A DNA stretch of 64,000 nucleotides, from positions 62,001 to 126,000 of the forward strand of contig JAIVFJ010000086.1 in the NCBI GenBank assembly GCA_025765615.1. Direction: 5' to 3'. The DNA is from Zopfochytrium polystomum (taxonomy: Eukaryota > Chytridiomycota > Chytridiomycetes > Chytridiales > Chytridiaceae). Shown piece by piece: positions 2,697 to 55,750 of this stretch (positions are counted from its first letter, which is position 1; each line of letters opens with the position of its first letter). The translations under genes and the position numbers were made by a program. Below the pieces are notes generated by a model. It was not told the origin of the DNA, did no database searches, and saw only the letters and a program-made list of their open reading frames with translations.

Positions 2697-4597
2697 TCAT
2701 GACGCAACAAGCCCAGCAGGCCCAGGCCCAGATTTTGAAGCGACAATCAGTGGTTTGAACCCCATCTCTTCTATTGGGATGGAGTACTCCGTAAGCTTGG
2801 CTTCGTAGACTCGAATCATGTCGTTGTGTGCCTGTTAGAAGATTAAACCATTCAGCAAATCCAGCAACGTTTCTTCGATGTCAAAAACACTCCTCTCAAA
2901 AATACTTCTTACCTTTGTGACTTTGGCAAGATCAAACTGCAGCTCTTTGATGGTGGCGTTTTTGGCCTCGAGCACTTCTTCGAGACGTCGGGTGAGGTTG
3001 GACAGAGCCGCTGGGTCCAAGTTTGTCGCTTTCAAGATCTCGTTAAGCTGCAGCTCTTTCTTCTCCAAGGTTTCCTTGAGGCTCTCGACTTTCTTTTCGA
3101 GAATCTGCATGGCACAAAAACGACGTTATTGACTTGAGTTGAGAGGAAGCCGCACGAAGATGTCACAAACCAGATTCTTGAAGCCCGACTTTTGCTGCAC
3201 TCCAACGATCCGGTCGACAAACGATTCGTACAACTCCGAGCGCTCTTTTTCAACCTTTTCGAATCGTTGCTCCAAAACTTCGTGCTCCCACAGCAGCATC
3301 TTGTGGGCATCTTCCAGGACTCGCAAACGGGCTTTCGAGTTTTGGAGCGAAAGCTTGTCCTTTTTGTAATGCAAAAGTTCTTTTTTCAGCGCGTCGCACT
3401 CGGCGAGGGCGGCCTGCAGAGGTTCCGAGAGCCGCTTATTCTCGGCGGTGATGTCGGTCATGAGTTTTTCGTTGCGCTCCTCTTTCTTTTTCATCTCTTC
3501 GACTTGTTCCTGCGGCAGCGAGGACGATTATCAGCGAGCTGAGACGCGATTGGTTTCAAGTAAAGAGCAAATGACGAAATCGTCCATCCAACGCACCTTC
3601 AAAGAGTTGATTAGGGCGAGATTGTTCAAAGTAATGTCGTTGTAGTAATTCTTAATCTCCGTAAACGCCTTGTCGTGATTCTTCATCAGCGCGTTGATCT
3701 GCCCGTTCTTCCTCTCCTCGATCTCGTGGATCTCGTTCTTCCGCTTGACCTCGAGCTCCTCCCTTAGCGCCTTCATCTTCTTCTCGAACCGCGCGTGCAG
3801 CTCCCGCGAGCCGCGCTCAAAGTCGGCCCGCATTTTTGTAATCTCAATGTCGTGCGACCGGGAGAGCGCGCGGAGGAGGTCCTCGTGCGCTAGTTCAAGC
3901 TCCTTGAGCTCGAGCTTGAGCGCGCGCTTGTCGCGTTTCAGTTGCTGTTCGCGGGTAGAGTGGTCTTCCTGATCGAGCTGGAGCGCGCGTTCGGAGTCGG
4001 CTTGGAGGTGGGCGACGTTGTTTTGGTATTCGTAGAGGAGATGCTTCACTTTTTGTTTGTACACCTAGCGCGATGAAAAATGGAAGAGGGGACAATCATT
4101 AGAGACCCACAGCAACGAAAATGATGAATCGGAAATCGCGAACCTTGATCTCCACTTGGTGCTTTTCCTCGAGCTCCTCCAGTTCGCGATCCTTGTTCAG
4201 GATCTCAGCTTTCGACTCCTTCAGCTCATTCTTTGTGATCTCCCAGAAAGAGCTGATCTTGTCCTGGTTGGGCGGAAGCACAGATTCGAACGTTGCGCCC
4301 AGATTAGCACGATCGTGCAGGCGCCAGCGATCAAAGATCGAGTTCAACATGCGGTTCCCCCCTCTTTCAAAACTCGACGCTCACCCTCTCGAGCTGGAAA
4401 AAGTTCCTCTCCTCCTTTTCGGCGGCGAGCTCCTCGGCCAGCTTCTTCAACTCGGCCTCGAGTTCTTCGCGCGATCGCCCGCCGTCGGCGCCGGCATCGC
4501 CGCCGGCGTCTGCGCCGCCGGCTCCCTTCTTGCTGCCCTTGGACGACGAGGACGAAGCCGACTTTGCGGACGCCGCCCCCTTTTTTTTGCCCGACAT
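2697..4597 (-). CDS. DRC4: Dynein regulatory complex subunit 4 (GAS8 family)
   Basis: DRC4 is a coiled-coil core subunit of the nexin-dynein regulatory complex on axonemal doublets. It coordinates dynein activity in flagella. Six exons join cleanly: 4385-4597, 4144-4263, 3597-4064, 3171-3509, 2913-3104 and 2697-2831. Introns are 121, 79, 87, 66 and 81 bp, all phase 0. The product is 488 aa, close to the family length (human GAS8 is about 478). Family blocks are easy to see: RNFFQLER then [15 protein letters not shown] then [24 protein letters not shown] then [23 protein letters not shown] and, at the C-terminus, YEAKL with GFKPL. Residues 1-45 are a Ser/Ala/Lys/Gly-rich, probably disordered N-terminus; the rest is almost all coiled coil. 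The start at 4597 (MSGKKKG) is chosen because upstream in-frame sequence is not protein-like. Its presence implies a motile flagellate stage. Confidence 0.95.
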
Positions 4598-8225: not shown

Positions 8226-10000
8226 CTATCTTAGATACGGTGGAGGAGACAGAAGCGGGGACTCGGAGCTCGCAACGGAACCGTTCGACGGCGTAGCGTC
8301 CCCGCCATACTCCCCTCTGACAACCTCCACCATCATCATGACCCTCGCGCGGGCACCAGCGGCCGCGATGCCCAGTTCGTTCGCCAGGAACGCACTGTCC
8401 ATCCTCGCCAACACAACGCCGTCGATCTCGTTCCGCAGGAACAGATCTACGACGGTGAGGTCCATCCCGAGGTCCGCCAGCGCCTTTGCGACCTGCTGCG
8501 TGTTCCACGACCGCCACGACGACGACGACGCCGCCGCAGATCCGGGACGCTTCTTTTCGGAAAACGAGGCGTAGGCTGCGTCGGCGGTGTGCGTTGAGTT
8601 TGCGGTGCGCGTGGAGGATCGGTGGGCGATCGCGGCGGCGTGCGCGGGGCTGAGGTTGGATGGCATGGGTGGATGGTTGGGGGTCGGTGAAGGGTCCGTT
8701 AAGGTCCATAGGCGGTGGACCGTCGATTTATGGTCTCGCATGTTGAAGGTGCGCTCGCGGCCGACTCCCCCGCCGCCGGCCACCGTGCTGACTGTTTCCG
8801 AGGAGACGAGCCTCCGGGCGGGGTAGCCCGCCGAAGGCTCCGATTGCATCCGCGGGTCCTGTTGTTGATACGCGCGGGACACCGTGGGTCTCCGCGGGTC
8901 GTTTGTGTTCGATAGGGACGAGGCGGGTACGCGCAGGTCGTTTTGGAATGTCGACGGTTGGGCGGGCATGCGAGAGGGACTGTCGTACGCCTCGCGAGCG
9001 CTATCGAAAGCAGCTGCGGCCACGTCGTACTGGCGGGACGCTCTCGCGCTCTGATCCGAGCCAGCGTTGGGTCGTGCCGCTGGAACGCCGTTTCGAAACT
9101 CCATTCGGTCCACGGTCGTGGATCCCATCATACCAACCTCACCATCACGGGTTGAGTTGATCATGTTGACGGTCACGAAGTTTCCTGAAGCCTTGTTGGC
9201 AGCCTCCTCCTTCGCCCTTCGACGGGGACGGACGAAGTAGTAGTAAATTAACAGACCGGCACCGATGACGGCGAGCGCACATCCAATGGCAATGCCGTCG
9301 ATTTGTATAATGGTGAGGGAGGTTGAGCTCGAGGCTACTGCAGCGGGCGTCGCGGCGGTGCCGTTAACAGCGGTGCCTGGAACGGGCGACACTGAACTTC
9401 GGATCGAAGTCGTCGAAGAAGCAGCTGTCTTGGCTGAAGTTGTCGAGGCAGCAGTAGTGAAGGTGGCTAATCGGGGAATATGATGCATATGCACAACCAA
9501 AACGGCCGAGTTCGAATAAGTGTGTCGGTCGAGATACAAGAAGTTAGCGTGGGCGATAGGGAAAGAAAAGATGAGCCTCACGTACAGATGCCAAAGGTGC
9601 AAGCGGTCGTATTTGACGGAACGAGAGCATTGTAGCTTCCGCATTGAAATGCAGAAAAGTCTGCTGCGGCGAGGGCGGTCGGTGCGGATCCGATGAGCTT
9701 GGCGCACGAGCCGCAGGCCGAGGAGGTCGGGAGTGAGGCGATGGCGTCGGACCGGAAGCAGGAGCAGAGCATCACGCCGGTGACGGGGCAGCAGCGGGAG
9801 CCGTAAGCGAGGCCAAAGGCGGAGGAGCTAGTCGAGCGGCAAAGGGCCTTGCACTCGTCGAGCGACGCCACTTCCTGCGCCGCCGTGACGGGCCCGCCGG
9901 CAACGACAGCAGGCGTTGCCGTGAAGCAGCCCACGTAAGACGACGACGACGACGACGACGACGAGGACGTCGGCGACGGCGATGGTGATGGCGCGGCCAT
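8226..10000 (-). CDS. WSC-like ectodomain / TM / SAM-domain membrane protein, copy 1
   Basis: Exons 9586-10000 and 8226-9466 are joined across a 119-bp phase-1 intron (GTACGT donor, GATTAG acceptor), giving 551 aa. Residues about 21-138 form a Cys-rich domain that begins YVGC and contains ECKALC, YGSRCC, CSC and CGSC; this spacing resembles the fungal WSC carbohydrate-binding domain. A Ser/Thr/Ala stalk follows (about 139-190). One TM helix (about 195-216, GIAIGCALAVIGAGLLIYYY) ends at RPRRR, so by the positive-inside rule the C-terminus is cytosolic. A low-complexity tail leads to a SAM domain at about 459-522 (W..QQVAKAL, FLRNEIDGVVL, FLANELGIAAAG). The protein ends SPPPYLR, a PPxY motif. 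There is no N-terminal signal peptide; a Ser run precedes the ectodomain, so the TM must act as a reverse signal anchor or an upstream exon is missing. Role inferred: cell-surface sensor. Confidence 0.85.
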
Positions 10001-10086
10001 GTTATGTGGTGACAGTGGGATTGGGTAGGGGGGAGGCGGTTCAATCGGGGCTGTTTGGGGTGGCGGAAACAGTGGCAGGGGCGGAG

Positions 10087-10089
<3 letters not shown>

Positions 10090-10177
<88 letters not shown>

Positions 10178-10200
10178 GTATGTGTGTGTGTTTGTGTGTC
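10090..10200. repeat. (GA)n followed by (TG)n microsatellite
   Basis: About 84 bp of pure GA repeat (10090-10173) run into an imperfect TG repeat. On the minus (coding) strand the (TC)n tract lies 90 bp upstream of the start codon of WSC-like/SAM copy 1, in its presumed promoter or 5' UTR. Confidence 0.95.
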
Positions 10201-10541
10201 TCTGTGTGGAAATTGTTTGATTGCCCTGTTTCTGCTTCCGGCCGGCCCTTCTGCCGTGTCCGCCTCAGCCCGCTTTTGGATTTGGAGAGCCCGCCGACCA
10301 ATCAGGTGCTCCGTCGATCTCCTCCCGTTTTTGGCGGTAAATCGGGATCCAACTGGAGGGTGAAACTCATCATGTACAGGCAGACAGACAGACAAACGAC
10401 CACCACCATATCGAGACAAAAATTGGGGGGGATGAGGATGAGGGAAAAATTGAGAATCGATCCCTCCCTCCCTCCCTTCAGCTGCAGCCGTTTGGGCTTG
10501 GGTTTATCCTTGGCAAAGCGGAATGCCTGTGTGTGTGTGTT

Positions 10542-10578
<37 letters not shown>

Positions 10579-11382
10579 CATCATCATCGCACGTTTACAC
10601 CTGTAACAAACAACTGCGAAAATAACTATTGTTGCTTGTCGGCAAAGTGGCACCCAGACGCCTGAAGTGATATGTGCGCAATTTAAGCGCACCGCAAAAT
10701 TGGATTCTGCGCCTTGTTGATCCTCCCGATGAATTCTGGCCTCTCAACTCCGCCAAGCTGAGAGTTGTCCGTAATGCCCGGGAAGAAGCTGCTTGTCGCG
10801 AACGCGGGACCATATGCAGTATTTTGTTTCGGTTGGTCGTAGAGCAGAGTAGGAGCGGAAAGGGCGGGCGCTCAACACTTTGCGAGCGGGCTTGACTTCC
10901 GCAGAGGAATGCCATTTTTCTTTTTCTGAAAGCGCAGCCTTTCGTCTTTCCTCTCTGCTCAGATGGAAGAGGCCACGGTTATGTACGACGCGGACGCGAT
11001 AAACATCCCGAGGACGGTTGAAATAGATGAAAGAAAGTACACACTTTGTGTGACAGAACTAAAATCCGTGTTCACCCGTAAGCGCCATCTTCGCATTTGT
11101 GTTTGTGTTGAGTTGTCGACCCCCCCAAAGACATATCACAGGGTGTAAAGCGCGCGCAGAAAATCAGCTGAGGATGGGGGGGTGCTTCTCCCGATAACGG
11201 AGCGAAGAAATGAAAAGGCCCCCACGTTATGCGCGCATCATTGTGCGGCAACTAGTTTTTCGGGATTAGGAAGGAGAAACGGAAATGGTACTAGAGTGAC
11301 CGTGAACATCTTAGACTCGCGAGCCCAACACTTAAGGAGATCAAAAACAAACCGAAACATGCCGCCTATCCACACGAACGCA
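10201..11382. other. Intergenic spacer with (TG)n tract
   Basis: Contains a (TG)n run at 10528-10577 and short unsupported open frames. No gene supported between the 5' end of copy 1 and the 3' end of copy 2. Confidence 0.5.
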
Positions 11383-12902
11383 TCACCCCAAATAAGGCGG
11401 CGGCGGCCGCGACAGCGTCCCCACATCGGACGATCCACCGCCGTCGACCGTCATCGTCGCGGCCTCCGCCCCCGCCGCAGCGTCAGAGCCTGCGCTGCGC
11501 GCCACGCCGCCACCGACACTCCCGCGCACCTTCATGATGACCATCATAGCCCTCGCGCGCGGGCCGGCGGCCGCGACGCCCATCTCGTTCGCCAGGAACG
11601 CGCTGTCCATCGCGTCCAGCACGACGCCGTCGATCTCGTTCTGCACGAACAGCGCGACCACTGCGGGGTCCATGCCCGCTTCCGCCAGCGCCTTGGCGAC
11701 CTGCGGCGGCGTCCACGAGCGGAGGTCGGGGTGTTTGGGCGTCGGTGCGCCGTCGCCGTCGACGGCGGCGGCAGGCTTTTCGATTTTGAGCAGCGTGGCG
11801 GGGAGGGCGGCGGCGGCGGTGGCTGCCGCAGCGGCGGCGGGGACGGGGACGGCGGTGCGAGGTGGTGGCGTTGGGGAGGATGCGGTGACCGAGGAAGCCG
11901 GTGGCGAGACGACGGGGGACGCGGTGCTGTAGACGGTGCTTGCGTTCTCGAGCTGCTCCAGGGCCGCCGGGCTCAGGGTGCTGCCGCCGCCGCCGCTGCT
12001 GGGCGGGCCGGGCGAGCCGCTCGTCGCGATCACGGCAAAGGTACCCGCGGTCTTGCTTGCCGCTTCTTTGGCGCTTCTTCTCTGGCGGGGAAGGACGACA
12101 AAGAAGAAGACGGCGGCAGCGACGGCGACGGCGACGGCGAGGCCGCCGGCGATGCCGCCGATGGCGGCGGGGGAGAGGGCGGAGGAGGCGCCCGATGACG
12201 AATCGGTCGGCGGGGAAGTTCCGTTGGCGTTTGCGGCGCCGCCACCGGTCGTCGAGACGGACGGGCTGCCGCCGCTGGATTTGGATGTGGCGGAAGTGTC
12301 TCTTGCTGTTGATGATGATGATGATGGGTCGGTCGGGGCGGATGAGGTCCCGGGCAGCGGCGAAGACGAGGATAGCGACGATCCCGAAGACGACGACGAC
12401 GACGACGACGCTGCTGTCCACGTACCTGAGAGGAGGGAGGCAGGAAGGGGAACATCGATCAACAATGGCCAAACACTGAGAAAAAGGGGAGTTCATCCCA
12501 AAAAAGAACAGAAGGACGGCCACACATACATATGCCAAACGAGTTGATAGAGTCCGCCTGCAGGACCTGTGCGTTGAAGCTGCCGCACTGGAACGACGCA
12601 AAGTCGGAAGTGACGATGGAGGTGGAGTTTGAGCCGATGAGGGTGAGGCAAGCGTCGCAGGCGGACGACGAGTCGAGCGAGGCGAGGGCGTCCGTGTTGA
12701 AGCAGGCGCACAGCATGGCACCGGTGGACGGGCAGCAGCGCACGCCAAAGGAGAGACCGAAAGCATAGTAGGCGGCGGACGCGCCGGGGGCGGCCTTGCA
12801 CTGCGCCTTGCAGTCGTCGAGCGACGTGACCTCCTTGTACGCCGTCACGGCGCTGCCGGCGCCGACTTTGGACGAGCGGCAGCCAAAGAAGGCCGCCGAC
12901 AT
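11383..12902 (-). CDS. WSC-like ectodomain / TM / SAM-domain membrane protein, copy 2
   Basis: Exons 12530-12902 and 11383-12425 are joined across a 104-bp phase-1 intron (GTATGT donor, CTCAG acceptor), giving 471 aa, the shortest of the five. Residues 1-125 are the Cys-rich WSC-like domain (FFGC, DDCKAQC, GVRCCPSTG, CAC, CDAC, FQCG). A Ser/Thr/Pro/Gly stalk spans about 126-205. One TM at about 211-236 (AIGGIAGGLAVAVAVAAAVFFF) is followed by LPRQRRSAKEAASK, a juxtamembrane segment shared with copy 1. The cytosolic linker is only about 120 residues and lacks the LF(S/T)G repeat found in copies 3-5. The SAM domain is at about 362-426 (WTPPQVAKAL, FVQNEIDGVVL, FLANEMGVAAAG). The protein ends RPPPPYLG, matching PPxY. 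No signal peptide is visible: the ectodomain starts within ten residues of the Met. Confidence 0.87.
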
Positions 12903-13005
12903 TCTCGGTTTGATTGTTTAACTGAGAGGGTGGTCGTTCTGGCTTGTCAATTAAAAATGCAATATGTGTTCAATCTAGTTGATTATTCAGATGAGCAGAC
13001 AGACA

Positions 13006-13038
13006 AGCCGACAGACCGACAGACAGACAGACAGGCAG

Positions 13039-13105
<67 letters not shown>
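13006..13105. repeat. (GACA)n tetranucleotide repeat
   Basis: About 100 bp of GACA/CAGA repeat with a few substitutions, starting about 103 bp upstream of the start codon of WSC-like/SAM copy 2. Related GACA tracts occur at 23117-23180, 34684-34745 (as CTGT) and 37549-37608. Confidence 0.9.
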
Positions 13106-13108
<3 letters not shown>

Positions 13109-13226
13109 AGACTGTGAAGAGAGACAGGCCCCAACCAACATGCGAATATTTTGCAGATTCACTCGTTCGTCGGACCGCACCAACAACAAATAGCGGATCG
13201 AAGCGCACTACGCGACTACGCGCGCG

Positions 13227-13982
13227 CTACTCCCGCGCACCCACCGCAGACGAGGTCGAGGACGAGGACAAGGACGATGCGCGCAACGTAACCACCGTCG
13301 CCCTCACGTGCGCGGCGATCGCCTCCGCCGCCGCCTCGGCCGCCAGCCCGCTCACGTCGAGCTCGAGCTCGTTCGGCATGCCGCGCAGCAGCTCGCCGCG
13401 CCGCCGAAACTCGCGCAGCGTAGCCACGTCGCGTAGCTTGCTCTCGCGCCCGGCCCCCGTGACGAGCCGCCGCTCGTTCTCCTCCGCGTCCACCGTCAGC
13501 ACCACCCCGACGACGACAACGCGGCCGCCGCGGCCGCCCGCGTCTTCTTGAATCCGCCGCCGTCGCGCCGCGTTCTCCTCGTCCACGCACCGCTTCACCA
13601 GCGCAAACGTGCCCGTGTCGTACTGGCCTCCCGCGTGCGCCCCCGTCATGATAAACCCGCGCGGGTTCACCCCGCTCGCTCCTCCTCCCTGCGCCGTCTC
13701 GAGCGCGCCCCGCACCGTCGCTTCGAGGATGCGCGCGCGCACGTCGCCAAAGGCCGCGCCCGAGCTGCGCGGCGCGATCGACACCGCGAGGTCGATCACC
13801 TTGTGGTTGTCGAGCACCAGCCGCATGCCGAGCATCGGCGCCAGCAACCGTGCGATCGTCAGCTTGCCAGTGCCGGGCCAGCCGTTGAGGTAAACGAGGA
13901 CCGGGACATCGTCGTTGTTGTCGCCATTGAGAAGAGGAAGAGGAAGCGGGTCAGCGGCCGCGTCCGTTGCCGCAAGGCTCAT
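13227..13982 (-). CDS. P-loop NTPase, small-molecule-kinase-like
   Basis: A single exon of 251 aa. A Walker A motif GWPGTGKLT lies at residues 34-42 after a beta strand (PVLVYLN), typical of shikimate/gluconate-kinase-like or chloramphenicol phosphotransferase-like P-loop proteins. It is followed by LAPMLGMRLVLDNHKVIDLA, consistent with a bound-substrate aspartate region. A middle strand RGFIMTGAHAG and a C-terminal part with ENERRLVTGAGRESKLRD (a lid-like, Arg-rich segment) fit that fold. The substrate cannot be predicted. It lies on the same strand between WSC-like/SAM copies 2 and 3, with about 320 and 520 bp of spacer, so it was inserted into, or trapped within, the tandem array. No motif ties it to those proteins functionally. 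Confidence 0.75.
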   Translation of the reverse strand: MSLAATDAAADPLPLPLLNGDNNDDVPVLVYLNGWPGTGKLTIARLLAPMLGMRLVLDNHKVIDLAVSIAPRSSGAAFGDVRARILEATVRGALETAQGGGASGVNPRGFIMTGAHAGGQYDTGTFALVKRCVDEENAARRRRIQEDAGGRGGRVVVVGVVLTVDAEENERRLVTGAGRESKLRDVATLREFRRRGELLRGMPNELELDVSGLAAEAAAEAIAAHVRATVVTLRASSLSSSSTSSAVGARE

Positions 13983-14505
13983 GGTGATTAAAGTAAGGTG
14001 GCTTGCTTCTTCTTCTTCTATGCAGAAATAAATACTTGGTGGGTGCGGGGGCGGGGGGGCTGTGCAGGTAAAAAATGCTGTGGCTTGCGTGCTGACAACG
14101 AGGACTTGATAACGCCGATAAACAAAAACACATCCGAAGATTTCGTCATACTGTTGTTCATTCTCAACACTGAGTGTGCCGTCGACGCTGGGAAAAATAG
14201 AAAAGGGCTGTCCCTTGCCTCCGCAGCCCCCCCGGCGAGGATGAAAGAACTGAAAGGGCGCGATAGGTTAGGGAGTCGACGAAAAAAATTGAAAAGAACC
14301 GGATGAGAAGTAACATATGTCCCATCAGAGTAATAATGAGGGGCAACTCTTAGAGGCAGAGGGAGCGAACGATACATAAGAGGCACCAATAGACTAATCT
14401 TTGTCACAAAAATAAGAAGTTCCTCCATCCCAAAGTGAAAGCGTCAAACGCTCACACACAAAGACCCCACTCTCTCGTCAAAGAATCTCCCCTCAAAGCC
14501 AACAA
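13983..14505. other. Intergenic spacer
   Basis: Holds the 5' flank of the P-loop gene and the 3' flank of WSC-like/SAM copy 3. Nothing further supported. Confidence 0.4.
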
Positions 14506-16772
14506 TCATCCAAGGTACGGCGGCGGCGCCAGCGTCCCTGAATCCGCCTCGCCTGGCCCCTCCATCGCCGCCCCCGCCGCCCCCGCGACCCGCGCGCGCA
14601 CCCTCTCCACCGCCCTCATCACCTTTGCCCGCGTCCCCGCGGCCGCGACGCCCATCTCGCTCGCCAAGAACGCGCTGTTGACCGTCGACACCAGCACCGC
14701 CCCGTCGACCTCGTGCCGCGCAAACAAGGCCGCCACCCCGGGCTCCACGCCCTCCGCCGCCAGCGCCGACGCGACCTCGCTCGCGGTCCAGTGCCGCGGG
14801 TCGGTGTCGTCCGGGGTGGGCTTGGGTTTCCGCAGAACGGTCTCGTGGGAGGACGCCGCCGCGGCGAGGGCTGCGGCGACGTCGGCGGCGCCGGTGAACA
14901 GCTGCGACGACGAAGACGACGCGCCGGCGAGCCGCTTCTCGCCGTCTGACGCAGCCGCCACCGGCGCTTCCACCGCATTCGGCCGCTTACGGAGCGTCTC
15001 TCCCGCGGCAGCCGCCGCCGCGAGAGCCGCCGCGACGTCCGCGGCGCCGGTGAACATGGACATGCGGCCGCCGCCGCCGGGGGAGGGCGATGACGGCCGC
15101 GGCGGCGGCGGCGTGGCGGGGCTGCTGTTCGGCGAGTGCGGAATCGGCGAGTGAGCAGTCGCGGACGATCCCGTGGTCGAGCCGTGGCTGCTTTGGGTGA
15201 ATTCTTGGACCTGTGCGGTGCGGCTGGTGGTGCGCCGCGGCGGCGTCGGTTCTGTCGGCGGCTGCGCGGGCGCGTCGACGTCTGGTGTGGTGGCGGTGGC
15301 GGTCGCGCTCTGGGGCGCAAAAACGAAGGATGGGTGGGACGAGCTGGCAGACTCACTCGTGGGCGGTGGCGGGATGTGTGGTGAGATGGGCTGGTGAAGC
15401 GCTGGATGCATGGCAGGGGTGGTGGCGACGGTGTAGTCTTGCTGTGGGTATGCGCGCCCGGGATCCGTCATGGCCACGGCCTCCTGCTGGTAAAGCGCTA
15501 GCTGCGCGGGATCATACACAAGCGGAGCCCAACCGAGGGCTGCCATTTCAGGAGCAGAAAGCCTATGCGCTTGGCGTGAGGAGCCAACGTACCCAACGTA
15601 CCCGATCCCGTCTTGCAGCTGCGATCCGGCATTGTAACCGTATCCGCCGCCGGCAACCTCCCAGCCGCCCACATGATCAGGCGCTGACAGACGATGAGCT
15701 GGATTCCTTTGGTTGGAGGGAGCCTGATTGTTGAGGGACTCGGATGTTCCACTGTTCCATCCTTGCGGCGGTTGCACCTCGGAAACGTTTGGGTTCGAAT
15801 GCCAGTTCGAAACGGTGTTTGGCTGGGGCGATCCGGGCGTTGAGGGCCTTGCACTGCTTCCAGGTCTTCCTCCATTTGCTCCAGACGCCGGCGACACGTA
15901 CAGGCTCGACATGAGCTCCTTCTTCTCGGTCCGTCGCTGCTCTTTCCACTTTGGAGCAAGCACGAGGAAATAGACTGCCGCGAACGCAATGAGGAGAAAC
16001 CCGATGCCGCCGGCGATACCGGCGATGGCAGCGGTGGAAATGGCCGACGAACTGGAGGACGACGAACCAGGACCAGGCGTGGGCCCCGTTCCTTCGTTTC
16101 CAGAGCCCGTGCCTGGACCGGTCGTGGTCGGAGAGGTTCCACCACCGCCATCGCTTGATCCGGAAGTTCCACCAGAGCCGTTGCCGGAGCTTGCAGTGGT
16201 GGTAGACACAGAGGAATTGGGATCCGTGGTTGTGGAAGTCGCAGTGGAGCTTGCGGTGCTCGTCGTGGTGCTGGTGGAGGTGGTTGTTGATGATGACGAA
16301 GAGGTCGTTGAAGTGGCTGGGGCTTCAACCAGACAAAATCAGCATGGACTGTGGGCAAACCAAAACAAAATCACTCACCGACAACGTACAAAGCGTACGA
16401 GTACCTCTCTCCCGTGGACGTCAAGGTCGCGTTAAACACGCCGCACTGGCTGGACGCAAAGTCGGACGCAGTGAACTCGGTCGCGACAGATCCGACGAGG
16501 GCGCTGCAGCTGCCGCACGACGACGCCGATGCCAGCGAAGCAACGGCAGCGGGGACGAAGCACACGCACATCATCTTTGCCTGCGGGGGGGTGCCCGCGG
16601 CGATGCCGACGGCGAGGGCGTAGTTGTAGTTGGAGGCCGAGTTCTCCTTGTAGGTGCAGAGCGCGGTGCACTCGGAAAGCGAGAGGACGGTCGAGAAGCC
16701 GGCGACGACGTTGACGGCCGAGACGGTGCCGAGCGTCGACGCGACGCAACCCGAGTAGACTGCGGCCGCCAT
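14506..16772 (-). CDS. WSC-like ectodomain / TM / SAM-domain membrane protein, copy 3
   Basis: Exons 16379-16772 and 14506-16322 are joined across a 56-bp phase-1 intron (GTGAGT donor, TGAAG acceptor), giving 736 aa. The Cys-rich domain occupies residues 1-131 (YSGC, ECTALC, CVC, CGSC, SQCG). It lacks the CC pair of the other copies: that position reads AAGTPPQAKMMCVC, so one disulfide probably differs. Stalk about 132-225 (Ser/Thr then Gly/Pro); TM about 228-252; basic juxtamembrane KWKEQRR then EKKELMSSL, shared with copies 4 and 5. The long cytosolic region has Tyr/Pro/Ser-rich sequence and two tandem repeats of the form MFTGAADVAAALAAA...ETLRK and LFTGAADVAAALAAA...ETVLRK. SAM about 643-708 (WTASEVASAL, FARHEVDGAVL, FLASEMGVAAAG). 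The C-terminus is APPPYLG (PPxY). Confidence 0.87.
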
Positions 16773-16802
16773 GACGATGTGGCTGTGCTGTGCAACAAAG
16801 GG

Positions 16803-16803
<1 letters not shown>

Positions 16804-16841
<38 letters not shown>

Positions 16842-16932
16842 TGTGTTCTGTTTACAATAATTGTCGACACGCTTGTGTGTCTGCTTTGACTATTTCTCTA
16901 TCGGAACAAGCCGCAGTCCCATCAATACTCGG

Positions 16933-16982
<50 letters not shown>
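16804..16982. repeat. Paired (TG)n and (CA)n microsatellites
   Basis: A (TG)n tract at 16804-16840 is followed by a (CA)n tract at 16935-16982. The two are complementary and could pair as an inverted repeat. The first lies only 32 bp upstream of the start codon of WSC-like/SAM copy 3. Confidence 0.9.
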
Positions 16983-17123
16983 TTGCGGAATTGTCGGCCA
17001 CTCGCTGCGCACTGTTGTTACATTTTGTGTGCGTTTATTTATTTGAACGCTTTGCGTTTTTTGGACCGCCACTCACTCAACGCACCCCATTAGCTCGGCC
17101 TGCACCGGCGAAAAAGCCCGAAC

Positions 17124-19699
17124 CTACGCAAGGTACGGCGGCAACGTACCACTCGCGGCCGCCGCCCCGTCGCCGCTGCGGATCCCGCTCACCGCCATCA
17201 TCACCCTCGTGCGCACCCCAGCCGCCGCGACCCCCATCTCCCGCGCCAAGAACGCGCTGTCGACCGTCTGCAGGACAGTCCCGTCGATCTCGTGCGCCGC
17301 AAACAGCTCCGCCACCCCCGCCTCCACCCCCGCCGCCGCCAGCGCGCGCGCGACCTGTCGCGGGGTCCAGCCCAGCACGTCGCAGGGCGGATGGGGCAAA
17401 ACAGCCGGCGGCGGCTGTAGAGGCGAAGTCGGCGCCGGCGCACCGCCCTTTGCGCCCTTTCTCTGGAGCGTCTCGTCGCCAGCCGCCGCCGCCGCAAGCG
17501 CTGCCGTGATGTCGGCGACCCCAGAAAACAGTGAGGACCTATGCTGGTGGTGTTGCTGCTGCTGCTCCTGCAGCAGCATCAGCGTGCGCGCGTCGGAGGC
17601 TGTCGAAGGCGTGCGTACGGACGCCGATGGCGGCGGCAGCTCCGGCTGCCGCGTCCTCTCGGCGGCCGGGTCAGTCTGGTGTGTGTACACCATGAGAGCC
17701 GGCCGCGACGCGACGTCCAGGGGAAGCGGGCGCTTTTTGCGGAGCGTGTCGCCTGCGTCAGACGCGGCGGCGAGCGCCGCGGCAATGTCCGCGACACCGG
17801 AAAAGAGCGTTGATTGCCGTTCCTCCGAGTCTTCATTGTCGGCGGCGGGACGAAGAGGGTCGCCCGCTACATTGTGGGGACGGACCGAGGCTGGAAGCGG
17901 AGGCGGATCGCCCGCGACAGAGAGCGCACGCACGGACGCAGAAAGCACCGACGCGGGTGTCCCACCGCCGCCGCCGCCGTCGCTGTATACCGTGCTCTCG
18001 CGCTGGACGCCGACCCACCCCGGGTACGGCAGCACCAGCGGCAGACCCGCGCGCTGCTGCTGCGCGCCGTCGTGCGCACCGTCCTGCGCCACCAGGAACT
18101 CGGGGCTGTCGATGGGTGCCTGCATCTGGTAGTGCCCGTCGACTACCTGGATCTCGGTCGGCGGCGACAGCAGCGGCGGCCTCGCACCGAGATCCCACCC
18201 GGCGGGACCAGTGGCGGACGGCGAGACACCGGTCGTCGTCGCCGTCGTCGCAGAAGACGCGGTCGATTGGCGGTTGGGCAGGGCTCCCTGATCCCCGCCG
18301 TACGCGACGTCGCCGGCCATGCGCCAGCCTCCAACCACAGCGTCGTACATAAGCATCGGCGGCGGCGGCTGCTGGCTGCCGACAGCATCCGCTGCCGCGT
18401 GCAGATACGACGGGTTCAGCTGTCCCTGCAACCTCGGCGCGATCGGCGACCACTCGTCGTCGCCACCACCGCCAGCACCCGCCGCTGCGCCGTCCGTCGC
18501 CGCCGCAGTCGGCGCCTCCCGGCCCCGCCGCCCATTCGGCGTGAACAGCGACGCCAGCAGCTCCCTCTTCTCCGCGCGCTCGCGACGCCTCCGCCGCGGG
18601 ACGATCACGAGCGCGTACACCGCGGCCGCGACGACGACGAACCCGCCGACGCCGCCCGCGATGGCGGCCAGCGTCGCCACCGTGAGGCCCAGGAACGGCC
18701 CCGCCGCGGGGGTTGGGTCCGCCGGGCCGGCGGGATCGGGGCTGGTGCCGTTGCTGGGCGGGGTGGTTGACGTTGTGGCCGTTGTGGAGGCGGCGGTCGA
18801 GTCGGGTGGTGCGGGGTTGGCAGCGTCGGTGCTGGTCGTCGTCGCGGCGGTTGGGCTTGCGGTCGTGGGCTGCGTCGAGGTTTCGGGAGGAGAGGGATAT
18901 GTTGTCGTCCAAGTGGTGGTCGAAGTGGAGGTTTGGGTATTTCCGTCGGTTGACGTAGGTGGAGGGGGCGGTTGCCAGGTCGAAGTCGGGGACGTGGACG
19001 ACGTGGGCGAATTCGTCGATGATGAGGCACTGCTAGATGACCATGTTGATGACGTCGACTGAGACGAAGAGGACGACGACGACTGAGAGGAGGACGATGA
19101 TGTCTGTGAGGAGGAAGAGGACGAAGAAGACGACGACTCAGATGAAGAAGACGGCGGTTGGGATGTCGATGAGGACGAAGGCAGAAGCGAAGACGACGAG
19201 CTGGACGAAGATGATGGTGACTGTGAAGAGTGTGTCGATGGGCCTTCAAACAAGGAGGATGTCAGCCAATCTTTTGCACCAAGGATTGTCAAGAAGAAAG
19301 CGGGTACCGACCCACGCGATACACAGCGATAGAGTACGCATCTGTCGTCGACGCCAGCATCGAGTTCCCGCCGCCACACTGTTTGGATGAAAAATCCGCC
19401 ACCGTAAAAGAGGCCGTATTCGATCCGAGCAGATTCGCACAGGAATCGCATGATCCGGTCGTTGTAGAGAGCGACGCCAGCGCCGACGGCTTGATGCAGG
19501 CGCATACAATGATGCCGTTTGGAGGACAGCACCGGAGGCCGTAGGCCAGCCCGTACACGTAGTTGGAGGGGGAGGAACCCGATGAAGATATGCAGGCAGT
19601 GCCGCAGTCGTTGAAGGTGGTGACGATGGCGTGGTACGAGATCACGTCGGCGGAGAGCGCTGCAGTCGCACAGCCTACGTAGTAGGTGGCCAAGTCCAT
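17124..19699 (-). CDS. WSC-like ectodomain / TM / SAM-domain membrane protein, copy 4
   Basis: Exons 19312-19699 and 17124-19243 are joined across a 68-bp phase-1 intron, giving 835 aa, the longest copy. The donor is weak (GTCGGT; a nearby GTACCC could compete). Met 19699 (MDLATYYVGC) is chosen because it puts the WSC-like domain in register with the other copies. Cys pattern: YVGC, NDCGTAC, YGLRCCPPNG, CAC, CDSC, KQCGGG. The stalk is exceptionally long (about 130-310) and almost pure Ser, then Thr/Pro. TM about 316-343, then PRRRRR and EKRELLASLF. The cytosolic region carries two repeats beginning TLFSGVADIAAALAAA and SLFSGVADITAALAAA. SAM about 755-820 (WTPRQVARAL, FAAHEIDGTVL, FLAREMGVAAAG). 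The C-terminus is TLPPYLA: the PPPY of its paralogues is shortened, leaving LPPY. Confidence 0.84.
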
Positions 19700-20147
19700 T
19701 TTTTTTTTTGAGGAGGTGGTGGTGGTGGCTGTGGCCCTGTGATTGTTTGTGGGGTTGAGCGGAGTTTCAAAATTGTCTGTGGAGCACAAAAACACGCGAT
19801 TGGATGCGATACACGTAGACACGCGAAGAGGCTTTGCAGCTCGTGGCAGGCCATTTGCCAACCGCGACAAAGTTTAGAGTGCAGGTATGGGGTACGCTGG
19901 TCTTTCATATTTTGAGCGTTTTGCTGGCGCGCCTTCAAAAATAAGCAAACCAAGAGAAAGGAGATGAAGCGTGGGGCACAAACCACAAGCAGCTGTGAGT
20001 AAACACATGACGGAGTAATAGTAAGTTGTATGTTGAACTAGGCAAAAATTACTTCACTAGAGTGCACACTAAAGCCAAAGAAAGGGAAAAGAATCAAAGG
20101 ACCAAATACCATCTGCGGGGTTCATCTCAAGCCCGCTTGGTGCACAT
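19700..20147. other. Intergenic spacer with T-run at the start codon
   Basis: An 11-T run (19699-19709) abuts the start codon of copy 4 directly; on the coding strand it is an A-run immediately before ATG. The rest, up to the 3' end of copy 5, holds no gene I can support. Confidence 0.5.
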
Positions 20148-22181
20148 TTAGGAACTCGACTCCAAATACGGCGGCGGCGACAAAGTCCCAGCCTCGACAC
20201 CGCCGGCCCCGTCATGATCAAGGGCCCGCGGGTCCTCGGGCTCGCCCCTGATCCTCCGCACGGCCATCATCACCCGCGTCCGCACACCCGCCGCCGAAAA
20301 GCCGAGCTCGCCCGCCAAGTACGCGCTGTCCACGGTCTGCAGCACTACGCCGTCGATCTCGTTCCGCACAAACACGTCGACGACGGCGCGCGGCAGCCCT
20401 TCCTCGGCGAGCGCGGCGGCGACCTCATGTATGGTCCAGGCGTGGACGTCGCGCGGCGGCTTGCCGGTCTTTTTCGCGGGGTCCGCGTCGGCGGCCGCCG
20501 CAGCCGAGAGCGCCGAGGTGATTTCGCTGACGCCGGAGAAGAGCGTGGGGCGAGCCGGGGCCGGGAACAGCGCGGGGTTGCTGGTGGAGTTGGAGACGGC
20601 GGCCGTTGCGCTGGGGTTCGACTTTTCCGAGAGCGGCAAGGGGGTTTTGCGATCGAGCGTCTCGCCGGCGGCCGAGGCGGCCGAGAGTGCCGCCGTGACG
20701 TCGGACGCGCCGGTGAAAATGGAGCTGCTGGTGACGGAGTTGTTGTGGGGGAGCGAAGAGGTGGGTGCGGAGCTCGACACTGGGGACGGGGACGCTGGGA
20801 GGTGAGCGCCGGGTCCGGAATAGCGGCTGGTCGTTCGCGCGGGCGCAAACGGCTGTGGCGTGCTTGCTTCGGAGATCCAGCTCGAGTTCGAGTCGTCGGA
20901 GGCGTTGGTCATAAAACCTGCTTCGCCGGCCAAGCGCTCCAAGCTCGGCTGCACTGGCGCAAGCGGTGGATAGAATGGCTGGACGCCTGGTGGGAGAGGA
21001 GCCGGCCAGCTTGATAGATCTGGTGTTGAAAGTCGCTGGCTGTGGTTTGGGTTTGGGATTGGCTCGACGGGGCTGTATGGAGCCGAAAGTCCGGCTGGCG
21101 AGGACCATCGATTGGTGTTGTCGCCTGAATGAAGCGGCACGGGTGTTCCTGCACTCGAAGGGCCGCCAATTGGCCTGGCTGGCGTCGATCCAGCCGGCCC
21201 TGGCCCTGGTCCACCTCCGCCACCGGAGCCCGAAGCGAGAAAGACCGAAGACATGAGCTCCTTTTTCTCCGCCTCCCTCTGGTTCCTCCAGCGCGGAAGA
21301 AGCACCAGGAAGAAAACGACCGCAACGGCAATGAGAACGACACCGATGCCCGCGGCGATGCCAGCGACGGCGCCGGTGGATATGCCCGACGATCCAGAGG
21401 ATCCAGGATCTGACGCGGGGGGCGTCGACGGGGCTCCGTCGCTGCCTTGGCTTGTTTGGCCGCCCGAGGTGGCGGAGCTGGCCCCTGGTGGTGTGGATCT
21501 TGAAGACGACGGATTTGTATCGGTCGTCGACCCTGAGCTGGCGGACGATCCAGGCGAAGCGGTGGTGGAGGTCGTAGACTGCTGGGGATCGGTTGTGGGG
21601 GGAGTCGATGAGGTCGCGGGGGGATTGGAGGTGGAGGTGGTTGGCTGTGAAGAAGTGGCCGTTGTTGGATCTGCGAGCAATGTAAAAGCAAAGTAGGTGA
21701 TGAATGGATGGATGGATGGATGGATACGATGAGTGGATGGACCGACGGAACACAAAACCAAACGCAACACATTTTTACCGAAGACCTTGTAGACGGCAAA
21801 CGAGTACGGGGTGTCGGTGGCGGAGAGCTGCCCGTTACCGCCGCCGCACAGGCTGGAGTCAAAGTCGGAGGGGGTGTAGTTGACCAGCGAGGTGTTGCCG
21901 CGCAGGGTCGCGCACGAGTCGCAGGTAGCGCCGGCGGTGGGGACGGAGGCGAGGGCGGCGGGCTTGATGCAGATGCAGAAGATGTTTGCGTTGGGCGCGC
22001 AGCAGCGCAGGGCGTAGCCGTAGCCGTAGACGAAGAGCGAGTGCGACGCGCCCGAGGTCGCGCTGCAGGCGGCGAGGCAGGTGTCGGCGGTGGCGACCGT
22101 CTTGTAGTACGACACGTAGTCGGCCGACAGCGCCGTCGACACGCAGCCGACATACGAAGTGACGGTGCCGGCGGCGGCCAT
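20148..22181 (-). CDS. WSC-like ectodomain / TM / SAM-domain membrane protein, copy 5
   Basis: Exons 21779-22181 and 20148-21670 are joined across a 108-bp phase-1 intron (GTAAAA donor, CTCGCAG acceptor), giving 641 aa. The intron is a multiple of three with no in-frame stop, so unspliced RNA would encode 677 aa. The intron model is preferred because the same position is interrupted in all four paralogues and the intronic residues (SIHPFITYF...) are unlike the stalk. The WSC-like domain begins MAAAGTVTSYVGC (DTCLAAC, YALRCC, CIC, CDSC, SLCGGG). Stalk about 135-230; TM about 235-259; then PRWRNQREAEKKELMSSVF. Cytosolic repeats begin SIFTGASDVTAALSAA and TLFSGVSEITSALSAA. SAM about 546-610 (WTIHEVAAAL, FVRNEIDGVVL, YLAGELGFSAAG). 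The tail is SPPPYLESSS (PPxY). Confidence 0.87.
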   Translation of the reverse strand: MAAAGTVTSYVGCVSTALSADYVSYYKTVATADTCLAACSATSGASHSLFVYGYGYALRCCAPNANIFCICIKPAALASVPTAGATCDSCATLRGNTSLVNYTPSDFDSSLCGGGNGQLSATDTPYSFAVYKVFGKNVLRLVLCSVGPSTHRIHPSIHPFITYFAFTLLADPTTATSSQPTTSTSNPPATSSTPPTTDPQQSTTSTTASPGSSASSGSTTDTNPSSSRSTPPGASSATSGGQTSQGSDGAPSTPPASDPGSSGSSGISTGAVAGIAAGIGVVLIAVAVVFFLVLLPRWRNQREAEKKELMSSVFLASGSGGGGGPGPGPAGSTPARPIGGPSSAGTPVPLHSGDNTNRWSSPAGLSAPYSPVEPIPNPNHSQRLSTPDLSSWPAPLPPGVQPFYPPLAPVQPSLERLAGEAGFMTNASDDSNSSWISEASTPQPFAPARTTSRYSGPGAHLPASPSPVSSSAPTSSLPHNNSVTSSSIFTGASDVTAALSAASAAGETLDRKTPLPLSEKSNPSATAAVSNSTSNPALFPAPARPTLFSGVSEITSALSAAAAADADPAKKTGKPPRDVHAWTIHEVAAALAEEGLPRAVVDVFVRNEIDGVVLQTVDSAYLAGELGFSAAGVRTRVMMAVRRIRGEPEDPRALDHDGAGGVEAGTLSPPPYLESSS

Positions 22182-24906: not shown

Positions 24907-27029
24907 TCAGAGCGCGTACGACTCGACCTCGGTCTCGACCTGAACCTTTCGGTACTCGCCCTGGAACGACGCGACGCTCGCCAGCGCGTCCTCCATGAAA
25001 CGCTCGGGTCCGCACACAAACACACCGACGCGGGCCGACTGCGCACCCGCCTCCTGGGCGGCGACGACCTTTTCCACGACGTGGCGGTTCATCAGCGCGC
25101 GCAGGTGCGGGCGGGCGCGGGTGGCGTGGATCGCGAGGCCTGGCTGCGCGGGGGTGGTCGTCGGCGCGATGGCGTGGTCCTCGACGTCGCGGCCGGGGCG
25201 GGATGTGTCGTAGAGGTGGAGGGTGAGCTGGACGTCGGAGCCGTTGACGTCGCGGATGAGGGCCTGGAGGGCGTCGAGGCGCTCGATGCCGGGGGCGGGC
25301 GCGGCCCAGAAGAGGTAGACGTGGAGGGCGGCGGTGCGCGAGCCCGCGGTGACGGTCTCGGTTTTGGCGTCGACGGTGGCGAGGTACTTGTCTGCGTTTT
25401 CGGCGTCGGAGGCGCGGTCGTCGAGGATGTGCTGGAGGATGGCGAGGGCCGGGGCGACGCCGGTGCCGCCGACGTAGAGGACGATCGAGTGGTAGGACGA
25501 GTGCTCGAGGGCGAGGCGGCTGGGGAGTCCGAAGGGACCTTGGAGGAGGAAGCGCGGGGGCTTGCTGCCGTCGGCGGGGTTGACTGCGTGCTCGTCGAGG
25601 TATTTGCCGACCTTGGCTGTCCATTGCTTGTCGGAGCCGGCCTCGGGCGCGAACAGGAAGGTGACCGAGTCGCTGGTGGCCCGGAGGACCGACCACGGGT
25701 GGTACTCGAGGGCGTTGACGGCCGGGACGGCGACGCGGAGGAACTGGCCGGGCTTGCAGGCGACGGCGCGGACGGTCGACACGGTCACGGTGCGGTAGCC
25801 GCATTCCTCCTTGACGTAGTTGGTGACGACGTTGGCCTTGAAGCGTGAGGCAAGGCGGATGAATCCATCAAGAGTCCAGAGCGCGAGACCTGGGAGAAAT
25901 TACGCGTGAATCAACAAACACTGCAGTGAGCTACTTCCCTTTTTGCTTCCAAAAATTACCCCGCCCGCAAAGACAGCTCTCGCTTACCCGGAATCGCGTA
26001 GAAGATCGACATGGACGCGTGGAAGTACGAAAAAAGGATAAAGAGGATAACGGCAAAGTGTGAGATGTAAAACACGTTGTACGCCTTGCGCCGGACAAAG
26101 CTCAGCGAGGTCAGGACGACAAAGATGAGGGCGATGGTGGCCCAGGCGCCGAAGACGAACAGGTAGTTCTCCTGGCCCCAGGTGGTCTTTCCGTCGCGGC
26201 CCTTCCTAGGGACGAACAACAGCTGGAAGAACGACAGGGCACCCCACTGCTCGTCGAGCAGGCCGACGGAGACGTGGAAGAGGGTGTACCACAGGGTGGC
26301 GTAGCCGAGCCACTGGTGGACGCGGACAACGGCGGTGTAGGGCAGGCCGAGGAGGTCGTTGACGGCCGAGTACTTTGCGGCGGGCAGCAGGGCGAGGCCG
26401 TAGATGACGGAGGCGCCGTCGCCGGACAGCCAGGCGAGGACCTCGAAGATTACGTGGATCCACTGCCACTGGCCCTTTGCGGCCTGGGGCTCCTTCTGGG
26501 CGTAGTAGTAGGCCCAGTTGGTGGCGGGCACGGCAAAGGCGGCGACAAAGACGGCGAGGGCGAACCACGCGACTTCGCCGAGCGTGACGGTGGAGGTCTT
26601 TGAGATGCGCAGGGCGGTGAAGCGGCGCACGACGCGCAGGTACTTTGCGGCGATGGCGACGAGGGCGGTGAAGACGAGGAAGCTGTAGAAGATTGCGAGG
26701 TTTTTGCGGATGACGACTATCTTGTTGGCCTTGACATGGTCGCACACCTGTTGTTGTTTTTGGGAGTGATTGATTGATTGATTGATTGATTGATTGCACA
26801 TCACTATTTAGCGTCCTGTTTCATGCCAGTGGAAGATTTCCTCCCCCACACACAAGCAAAAACTCACATCAGAGAAGCAGCCCGTCTTCACTCCCGCGTA
26901 AAAGTGGCCAAAGACCCACGACGCCGGGTAGATGGCGAGCGAAAAGACGAGAAAGACGAGCGACAGCAGCGAGAGGACCGACTTGGACCGCGCTGCAACT
27001 GCAGAAGACGAAGAGGTCGATGGAGGCAT
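24907..27029 (-). CDS. Ferric reductase / NADPH oxidase-type transmembrane oxidoreductase
   Basis: The predicted role is to move electrons from cytosolic NAD(P)H through FAD and two hemes across the membrane, typically reducing Fe(III) chelates before iron uptake. Exons 26868-27029, 25988-26747 and 24907-25889 (introns 120 bp phase 0 and 98 bp phase 1) give 634 aa. TM1 is near residues 18-42. The heme-binding core has H198 and H212 (HQWLGYATLWYTLFH, 13 residues between) and H284 and H297 (12 between), the classic bis-heme spacing. The cytosolic half has the FAD motif HPWS at 371-374, a nucleotide-binding GGTGVAPALA at 448-457, and CGPERF at about 600-605. Length and order match the fungal FRE/NOX superfamily. 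The absence of EF hands or other additions favours a ferric reductase-type enzyme over a calcium-regulated NOX. The first intron carries a TGAT repeat. Confidence 0.9.
26768..26797. repeat. (TGAT)n repeat inside ferric reductase intron 1
   Basis: About seven TGAT units within the first intron of the ferric reductase gene, on the acceptor side. Confidence 0.9.
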
Positions 27030-54200: not shown

Positions 54201-55750
54201 GTCGGATGAAAGGTTACCACCAGCGTTCCCGTCAGGTCCGGGCGCAGGCGGGGAAGGGTCGGAGAGGGGGGAAGCAGATGAGTCTCCAGCGCCGTCTTGG
54301 GACGAGGCAGGGGGGCCAATGAAGCCGCCGCTTGAGTCGGGTGAGGAAGAGGAGGGAGGAGGCGAGGAGGCGTCTGACGGTGGGGTGGGAGACGAGTCTG
54401 ACGGAGACGAAACGGGGCCAATGAAACTTCCGCTTGTGTCCGGCGGGGAGGAGGAGTCGCCTAGGGGTGTGGGTGCAGAAGAGTCAGTTAGGCCGGGAGC
54501 ATCTTGGGCTGAGACAAGGTCACTCGAAGGTAGGGAAGAAGAGGAAGAAAGGTCGGACAGGGGGGGAGCGGAGGAGTCTCCGGCAGGAGTGGCTTCGGGC
54601 GAAGTTGGGCCGATAAAATTTCCGCTAGGGCCAGATGGGAAAGAGGAAGACTCATCCGAAGGTGGTGGGGAGGAGGGGTCGGTTGGAGAGGGGGTGGAGG
54701 AGTCGCTGGGAGAAGCGTCTTGGGAAGAAGCAGGGCCGATAAATCCTCCATTTGGGCTCGGTGGGGAAGAGGCGGGGTCATCCGATGGTGTGGGTAAGGA
54801 AGGGTCAGATAGAGGGGGAGCCGAGGGATCTTCGGCAGGAGCATCCTGATGTGAATCCACGTCTGTGACGTCTTCAGCCATGCCGGGTGAGGGAGGGGAG
54901 TCGTTTGGAGCGGTGGTGCCAGATGAGTCCCCTGCGGAATCGTCGTCTGGTGGGTCGGGCAGGGTAGACGATAAGTCACCTGCGGGAGGAGTTCCAGAGT
55001 CCCCGCTTGGCGGCCCAGAGTCACCGCCCGAAGGCGGCGCCGGAGACGACGAGTCTCCGACGGGGTTGCTTTGAGGCGAGGCGGGACCGATGAAGCCGCC
55101 GCCGGCTGTGGACTGTTGCGGCGAGTCGTCGCCGCCACTGGGTGGAGGCGTGTCTCCCGATGACAGTGGTGGTGGCACTGCGAGATCTGCCAGTGAAGAA
55201 GACACAACTGGTCAGTCAACAAACTATCCGCCGTGGGCGATGGTGAAGGACGGAGGTAGAGAACGAACGAGCTTACCTCCAGAGGAGCCCGCAGGGCCAT
55301 CAGAGCCTCCGTCACCTTCAGCAGTAAGGGTGAATGGTCAGATAACGCGTGAAACCTCGGCGGGCATGAGGTTGTTCGAAGGGGAAAAAGCTCACTCATT
55401 GGCGGTCCAGCCGCGATTCCGTCGCCGCCGTCTTCCCCGTCGTCATCCTCATCGAACTCATCGTACTCTTCATAGTCTAGCTCGCTTGGTCGTAACTTTG
55501 CTGCTGCTGCAACTCCGGCGCGACGCCGAAACAGTCGCTCAGGCCGGCTGGTGACAAACGGTGCCACCGGTGCCAGGAGCGCGGCGTCGACTGCGGGGAC
55601 GAAGCCGCGCCGATCTAGTGGGGTTGGCTCGGCGCTACCGACTGCTGCTCCCACGGCGGAGCCGAGCACCAGAGCTCCGACAAGAAGAAGCGGGACAAAG
55701 GATCCATTCTTTGTCCTCGGCCGCGGCCGCGGCCTCACCGGGGAGGGCAT
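51251..55750 (-). CDS. 1,418-aa secreted/anchored polyampholyte with FIGP repeats and Lys-rich tail
   Basis: Four exons (55396-55750, 55277-55315, 52976-55186, 51251-52902) join with every intron in phase 1 (80, 90 and 73 bp). Residues 1-40 look like a signal peptide or signal anchor: basic RPRPRPRTKNG, then a hydrophobic FVPLLLVGALVLGSAVGAAV. A short acidic stretch follows (YEEYDEFDEDDDGEDGGD, about 95-113). Residues about 132-868 are Ser/Pro/Asp/Gly-rich with about nine FIGP motifs (GGGFIGPAS, GGFIGPPAG and similar) at irregular spacing. Residues about 869-1418 are extremely basic (KKGKK, KKSKK clusters), containing three copies of a unit with GNNASRAAA and a KAGLDK end, then KKEEPKK runs. 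Such a split-charge secreted protein could condense on cell walls or bind mineral or polyanions; Lys clusters recall silaffin-type or histone H1-type tails. No family recognised; function is inference. Confidence 0.75.

Follow-up and report, generated by a model that had tools for sequence, protein, structure and literature searches.

A tandem array of WSC-like, single-pass membrane proteins with a SAM domain and a terminal PY motif in Zopfochytrium polystomum

Why should a fungal surface protein carry, on one cytoplasmic tail, both a SAM domain and a short motif of the kind that ubiquitin ligases bind? The question is raised by five paralogous genes (g1 to g5) lying on the minus strand at positions 8226-22181 of a 64,000-nucleotide stretch of the genome of the chytrid Zopfochytrium polystomum (contig JAIVFJ010000086.1, positions 62,001 to 126,000; the window, hereafter). 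All of them follow a common plan: a cysteine-rich ectodomain, a Ser/Thr stalk, a single transmembrane segment (TM), a low-complexity cytoplasmic tail, a SAM domain and a terminal PY motif, (P/L)PxY. We propose, with a probability of about 0.4, that the proteins are Wsc-like surface sensors whose SAM domains would cluster the tails into a PY array, which in turn would recruit and activate an Rsp5-type ligase, for turnover or for signalling. The anatomy on which this proposal stands (the structure of the genes, the order of the domains, the SAM fold, the conservation of the motifs, the signals of topology and a genomic pair of Rsp5-type genes) is what we consider established by the sequence and by structure models.

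Gene models, ectodomains and membrane topology

The gene models were made from sequence alone, with splice sites chosen by eye from GT/AG and frame, and the outer ends of g1 and g5 fell exactly on the limits of the interval given above. The spliced models encode 551, 471, 736, 835 and 641 residues (g1 to g5), and all five window copies are intact. Each gene has one intron (119, 104, 56, 68 and 108 nucleotides, respectively), which is in phase 1 and at an identical position, the boundary between ectodomain and stalk, in 5/5 genes; close to the g2 acceptor and the g4 donor there are alternative sites. Left unspliced, g5 is one 677-codon open frame, hence its ectodomain and SAM domain belong to one gene, and the public model of a paralog on contig C105 (DFJ73DRAFT_850455) has the same architecture in a single 674-residue protein. 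The original prediction of five same-strand genes with a WSC-like ectodomain, a stalk, a TM and a SAM domain was borne out by the gene models and by profile and fold comparisons, and g5 and the C105 paralog speak against ectodomain and SAM exons that belong to separate genes. Identity to g1 is 33-51% in the ectodomain and 43-59% in the SAM tail, and the g5 tail, used as a query, recovered the SAM tails of g1-g4 with E values from 6.9e-23 to 9.5e-20, far beyond chance. As a tandem array the locus stands in that five paralogues share one strand, but the series is interrupted between g2 and g3 by a P-loop gene (AAA_18-like, 24.8 bits, under the cut-off of 29.4) at 13227-13982 (-).

Eight cysteines in the order of yeast Wsc1 (C, CxxxC, CxC, C, C, C) are kept in all five ectodomains. 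Exactly these eight are present in g3, and a vicinal CC is added in g1, g2, g4 and g5; the spacing departs from that of Wsc1 (PMC9024836) in two places, one ahead of the CxC pair and the other between the two final cysteines. At the position of the CGG motif, CGG is found in g4 and g5, CGS in g1 and g2 and CGV in g3. In Pfam scans of g1-g4 as isolated ectodomains and of g5 in full length, no copy reached the WSC (PF01822) cut-off of 27.8, the best being g1 with 19.1 bits and g2-g5 having no WSC match up to E 1. Kazal, PAN or other known modules, of which the first two had been named for a profile search, were discarded, as Pfam gave over the ectodomains besides that WSC match only a chance-level zinc ribbon (g4). 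The fold predicted for the g4 ectodomain, a middling model, was compared with the PAN/Apple fold plus WSC loop. A standard domain library can miss this family, as is seen from DFJ73DRAFT_850455, in which Pfam found nothing at E 0.01.

The stalks, with boundaries set in the present analysis, measure 53, 87, 98, 189 and 101 residues (g1 to g5), near the first estimate of about 65 to 180, and consist of 49-60% Ser and Thr; one TM follows in every protein. No basic residue occurs in the 20 positions before the TM, and 5-8 occur in the 25-residue stretch at its inner end (5/5 proteins), where basic residues had been noted at first reading. A Met is placed at most about 20 residues ahead of the domain in all seven WSC-type loci (g1-g5, C86:14166 and C105), G follows the start codon in six of the seven, and the public model DFJ73DRAFT_850455 starts at the same Met that we read for C105. 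Judged by hydropathy only, a signal peptide is not evident: the best 19-residue value near the N-terminus is 0.59-1.62, versus 2.25-3.14 in the TM, and the highest of these values, the 1.62 of g3, falls inside the ectodomain. In g2 an in-frame stop lies 6 codons upstream and a single AG one base ahead of the ATG; in g4 the frame stays open for 59 codons upstream and contains possible acceptors, and some genes could have an upstream signal-peptide exon. Given the position of the Met and the charge asymmetry around the TM, the simplest reading of these topology signals would be insertion with the N-terminus outside (N-out) and without a cleaved signal.

SAM domain, PY motif and candidate ligases

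The assignment of the C-terminal domain of g1-g5 to the SAM fold is well supported, and the fold originally predicted for this segment withstood comparison with profiles and structures, including that of the g5 model (Table 1). It rests on these comparisons rather than on Pfam, whose support is uneven (SAM_2 above cut-off in g2 and g3, SAM_1 sub-threshold in g1 and g4, no SAM match in g5). A SAM profile run against PDB matched 31 sequences up to E 1, the nearest being Scm, SAMHD1 and Polyhomeotic, while Shank2 ranked below them; Scm, Polyhomeotic/PHC3 and Shank belonged to the closest matches both by profile and by structure. The SAM domains of Scm, Polyhomeotic/PHC3 and Shank polymerise. The array domains resemble these in fold, in profile and structure proximity and in a bipolar distribution of charge (computed charge polarity), and differ from them in their place, close to the C-terminus of a protein of the membrane, and in that their polymerisation is only proposed here. 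As for Ste50 and Ste11, which had been named as MAPK-cascade partners of SAM domains in general, no entry so named was found among the 31 PDB matches up to E 1; this is a weak negative, on which a Ste50/Ste11-type SAM was set aside.

The PY ending is found few residues from the stop in 5/5 proteins (PPPY in g1, g2, g3 and g5; LPPY in g4). We read 29 of the 30 SAM-tail loci fetched from the genome (that on C524 was left out), many of them alleles, and found 27 with PPPY, one with LPPY and one with no such motif in frame. Counted per locus, 10 of the 12 distinguished end in PPPY, g4 in LPPY, and C86:16035 has PPPYLG in another frame only. Since the linker from the SAM domain to the motif is not conserved, the PY motif seems to be constrained in its own right. 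The WW domains of Rsp5 take PPXY and LPXY as ligands (PMC2810449). The terminal (P/L)PxY is a candidate docking site for an Rsp5-type WW-HECT ligase, and in the region C215:73.4-80.1 kb the genome has two tandem genes of Rsp5/Nedd4 type (73.9-75.8 kb and 78.1-80.1 kb), both of which combine three WW domains with one HECT domain; C164 shows parallel matches. A C2-like stretch was noticed, by eye only, upstream of the C215 genes.

Another cytoplasmic motif, approximately F(S/T/N)G(V/A)x(D/E)(V/I)xxALxAA (FSG motif), occurs twice in g3, g4, g5, the C105 copy and the copy at 16 kb on C86, once in the C4 paralog and in a looser form in the C208 copies (both described below); none was detected in g1 and g2. 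When the genome was searched with the g4 motif, the 20 matches up to E 10 fell without exception on contigs with WSC-type members or on C4 and C524. By eye, the motif resembles the first SAM helix.

Clustering, Rsp5 binding and the function of the array proteins are what we infer from this anatomy, as follows. The proteins would be inserted N-out: outside, the stalk would bear a cysteine-rich domain of WSC type (PAN/Apple-like), and inside there would be a long flexible tail, the SAM domain and (P/L)PxY. Wall polymer, stress or the ectodomains themselves would gather the ectodomains, this would lead to a head-to-tail SAM polymer, and single PY motifs would thereby become a dense array by which a WW-HECT ligase could be recruited and activated. 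The receptor or its neighbours might then be ubiquitinated and internalised, or a signal relayed. In yeast, Wsc sensors form clusters upon wall stress and require the cysteine-rich domain to do so (PMC9024836). Nedd4-type ligases are activated poorly when PY substrates are soluble and strongly when these are polymerised or tethered to a membrane (PMC5892558). The DIX-TPR-Ndfip2 constructs of the latter work join self-association with PY, the combination that switched on the ligase there, as the array proteins would, with DIX/TPR polymers or membrane tethers in place of a predicted SAM domain. Surface sensors with their own oligomerisation domain, as first proposed, are a fair reading of an ectodomain, a stalk, a TM and a SAM domain in one protein. 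The PY ending, the repeated FSG motif, the lack of an evident signal peptide, the P-loop gene and the relatives elsewhere, partly with other ectodomains, had no place in the original prediction.

Relatives, selection and competing readings

A second full copy of the array is found on contig C306 (37.6-51.6 kb), with 98.0% identity over 12.2 kb, the longest aligned piece, and is probably the other haplotype. In the pooled genes, the window and C306 differ by 47 synonymous changes (2626 sites) and 32 nonsynonymous changes (7013 sites), and the ratio of about 0.26 points to purifying selection on the array genes. Against this stand one-base, frame-breaking indels in C306 g2, g3 and g4 (none in g1 and g5); they could be assembly errors in a GC-rich haplotig or real decay, and the counts of differences, too, might be raised by errors of this kind.

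The same SAM-PPPY tail is found under a different ectodomain (FCVGDxIxY motif) in a second array at C208:95-113 kb, with related copies on C195, C477, C188, C530, C546 and C580. Two of these ectodomains (copies a and c) were scanned and reached no Pfam cut-off; at least three C208 copies open with stretches that look like signal peptides by eye, in contrast to g1-g5. A further, degenerate-looking copy, the thirteenth, lies at C208:95361, with no PY seen. On C4 (381.0-386.5 kb) a paralog, publicly DFJ73DRAFT_756074, has the SAM-PY tail, a stalk and a TM, with no recognisable WSC exon within the 5.5 kb read; the N-terminus of its public model looks doubtful. The frame of the C86:16035 copy is broken within the SAM domain. 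In a tree of SAM domains all 12 copies grouped together against Scm and Ph (97/97); most of the internal order is open, and the WSC-type and other-ectodomain classes are left unseparated (bootstrap not settled; C4 labelled WSC despite no WSC exon having been seen, and the C86:16035 row ending at its frame break). Weak SAM-tail matches were also seen on C89, C61, C24, C248, C685, C195:11-15k and C477:6221. Between receptor copies at C208:90.5-100.4 kb there are two similar genes, arrestin-like by eye; two frames of one of them had no Pfam match.

Protein searches with the SAM-PY tail returned only Zopfochytrium, with one match among 6575 candidates in a search of poor sensitivity (it missed the paralog DFJ73DRAFT_850455) and two, one being the query, among 7988 candidates scored in a further search; with the g5 ectodomain as query, none among 387 candidates matched at E 10. 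No protein search listed even the five proteins of the window, and with sensitivity this poor the absence of relatives from other fungi is not established. In searches of the open-access literature, judged by titles and the beginnings of abstracts, no paper was found that describes a family joining WSC, SAM and PPxY, in agreement with the initial view that no such family was known.

An N-terminal signal peptide is a defining feature of Wsc-type sensors, and those of yeast have short cytoplasmic tails. Like yeast Wsc1-3 (PF01822, 7pz2), the array proteins have an eight-cysteine WSC/PAN-type ectodomain, a Ser/Thr stalk, one TM and a basic stop; unlike them, they have no evident signal peptide, are sub-threshold to Pfam WSC and carry a long tail with SAM, FSG (g3-g5) and PY. 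It is conceivable, if rather unlikely in our judgement, that they are wall sensors in which the SAM domain only clusters or binds a SAM protein of a MAPK cascade and PY is a housekeeping endocytosis signal. The WSC-stalk-TM plan fits this, as does the need of yeast sensors for the cysteine-rich domain in clustering (PMC9024836), whereas the signal peptide that is not evident, a tail far longer than those of Wsc proteins and, as weak evidence, the lack of a Ste50/Ste11 entry argue the other way.

We consider it unlikely that the proteins are membrane-anchored Rsp5 adaptors, as Bsd2, Ndfip, Comm and PRRG are, which would sense nothing and bring other membrane cargo to the ligase. The likeness to those adaptors is that of a membrane protein with cytoplasmic PPxY/LPxY, and Comm1, PRRG1 and PRRG3 span the membrane, carry PY motifs and lack signal sequences, as here (PMC5578492); moreover, the SAM-PY half under a different ectodomain elsewhere in the genome could select cargo. 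In the array, however, a single PY is placed at the extreme C-terminus after a SAM domain, in a protein with a WSC-like ectodomain. Neither a conserved SAM domain nor a conserved disulfide-type ectodomain is known as a feature of such adaptors, no search having been aimed at this, and both speak against this reading. A family of adhesins or recognition proteins, whose variable ectodomains would bind to a substrate or to kin, the SAM-PY tail doing no more than anchor and cluster them, would suit the tandem array, the divergent ectodomains, the range of stalk lengths and the second array with another ectodomain, but is very improbable with allelic change that is mainly synonymous per site and with g2 and g5 ectodomain exons identical between the two contigs.

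Returning to ligase activation through clustered PY motifs, a wider form of it, which we hold to be speculative and rather doubtful, would see a lineage-specific receptor class as its own ubiquitin-ligase switch: an exchangeable ectodomain gathers, and the SAM polymer makes the PY array that activates Rsp5 without an arrestin-type adaptor, the expansion accompanying the tandem Rsp5-type pair. If true, surface sensor, polymerisation domain and ligase dock would be joined in one polypeptide, a combination built by hand for Nedd4 substrates (PMC5892558); the array would let one ask in a natural system whether clustering is by itself enough to activate Rsp5-type ligases, and chytrid wall sensing would be built from parts differing from those of yeasts.

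Coordinates and neighbouring genes

Table 1. Features of the five array genes, in window positions (pLDDT, predicted local distance difference test)
Feature	Positions	Strand	Basis
g1 exon 1, WSC-like ectodomain, begins at own Met	9586..10000	-	gene model
g1 exon 2, stalk/TM/cytoplasmic tail/SAM/PY	8226..9466	-	gene model
g1 TM with basic stop	9216..9308	-	hydropathy, charge count
g1 SAM	8307..8507	-	SAM_1 17.0 bits, below cut-off
g1 PPPY	8235..8246	-	motif
g2 exon 1, WSC-like ectodomain	12530..12902	-	gene model
g2 exon 2, stalk/TM/tail/SAM/PY	11383..12425	-	gene model
g2 TM	12076..12165	-	hydropathy, charge count
g2 SAM	11515..11715	-	SAM_2 23.6 bits, above cut-off
g2 PPPY	11392..11403	-	motif
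g3 exon 1, WSC-like ectodomain, exactly 8 Cys	16379..16772	-	gene model
g3 exon 2, stalk/TM/tail/SAM/PY	14506..16322	-	gene model
g3 TM	15931..16029	-	hydropathy, charge count
g3 FSG-type cytoplasmic motif, copy 1	14986..15057	-	motif
g3 FSG-type cytoplasmic motif, copy 2	14830..14901	-	motif
g3 SAM	14587..14790	-	SAM_2 25.3 bits, above cut-off
g3 PPPY	14515..14526	-	motif
g4 exon 1, WSC-like ectodomain	19312..19699	-	gene model, predicted fold
g4 exon 2, longest stalk/TM/tail/SAM/PY	17124..19243	-	gene model
g4 TM	18582..18677	-	hydropathy, charge count
g4 FSG-type motif, copy 1	17736..17807	-	motif
g4 FSG-type motif, copy 2	17460..17531	-	motif
g4 SAM	17169..17369	-	SAM_1 15.1 bits, below cut-off
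g4 LPPY	17133..17144	-	motif
g5 exon 1, WSC-like ectodomain	21779..22181	-	gene model
g5 exon 2, stalk/TM/tail/SAM/PY	20148..21670	-	gene model
g5 TM	21276..21371	-	hydropathy, charge count
g5 FSG-type motif, copy 1	20649..20720	-	motif
g5 FSG-type motif, copy 2	20472..20543	-	motif
g5 SAM	20238..20438	-	predicted fold, pLDDT 84.6
g5 PPPY	20166..20177	-	motif

Elsewhere in the window, a heme peroxidase (PF00141, 81.9 bits) at 62365-63843 (-) adjoins WSC matches that lie past the window end (C86:127989-128646). Hybrid B peroxidase-WSC fusions are a class described for fungi, and the two are probably a fusion of this type. A fragment of a ciliary gene of GAS8/DRC4 type (PF13851, 46.4 bits) at 3531-4064 (-) is consistent with a zoospore-forming fungus. 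A ferric reductase-type gene (Ferric_reduct, FAD_binding_8, NAD_binding_6) occupies at least two open frames at 24907-26804 (-), and long repetitive open frames, Lys-rich and Pro/Ser/Gly-rich, extend over 51251-55205 (-).

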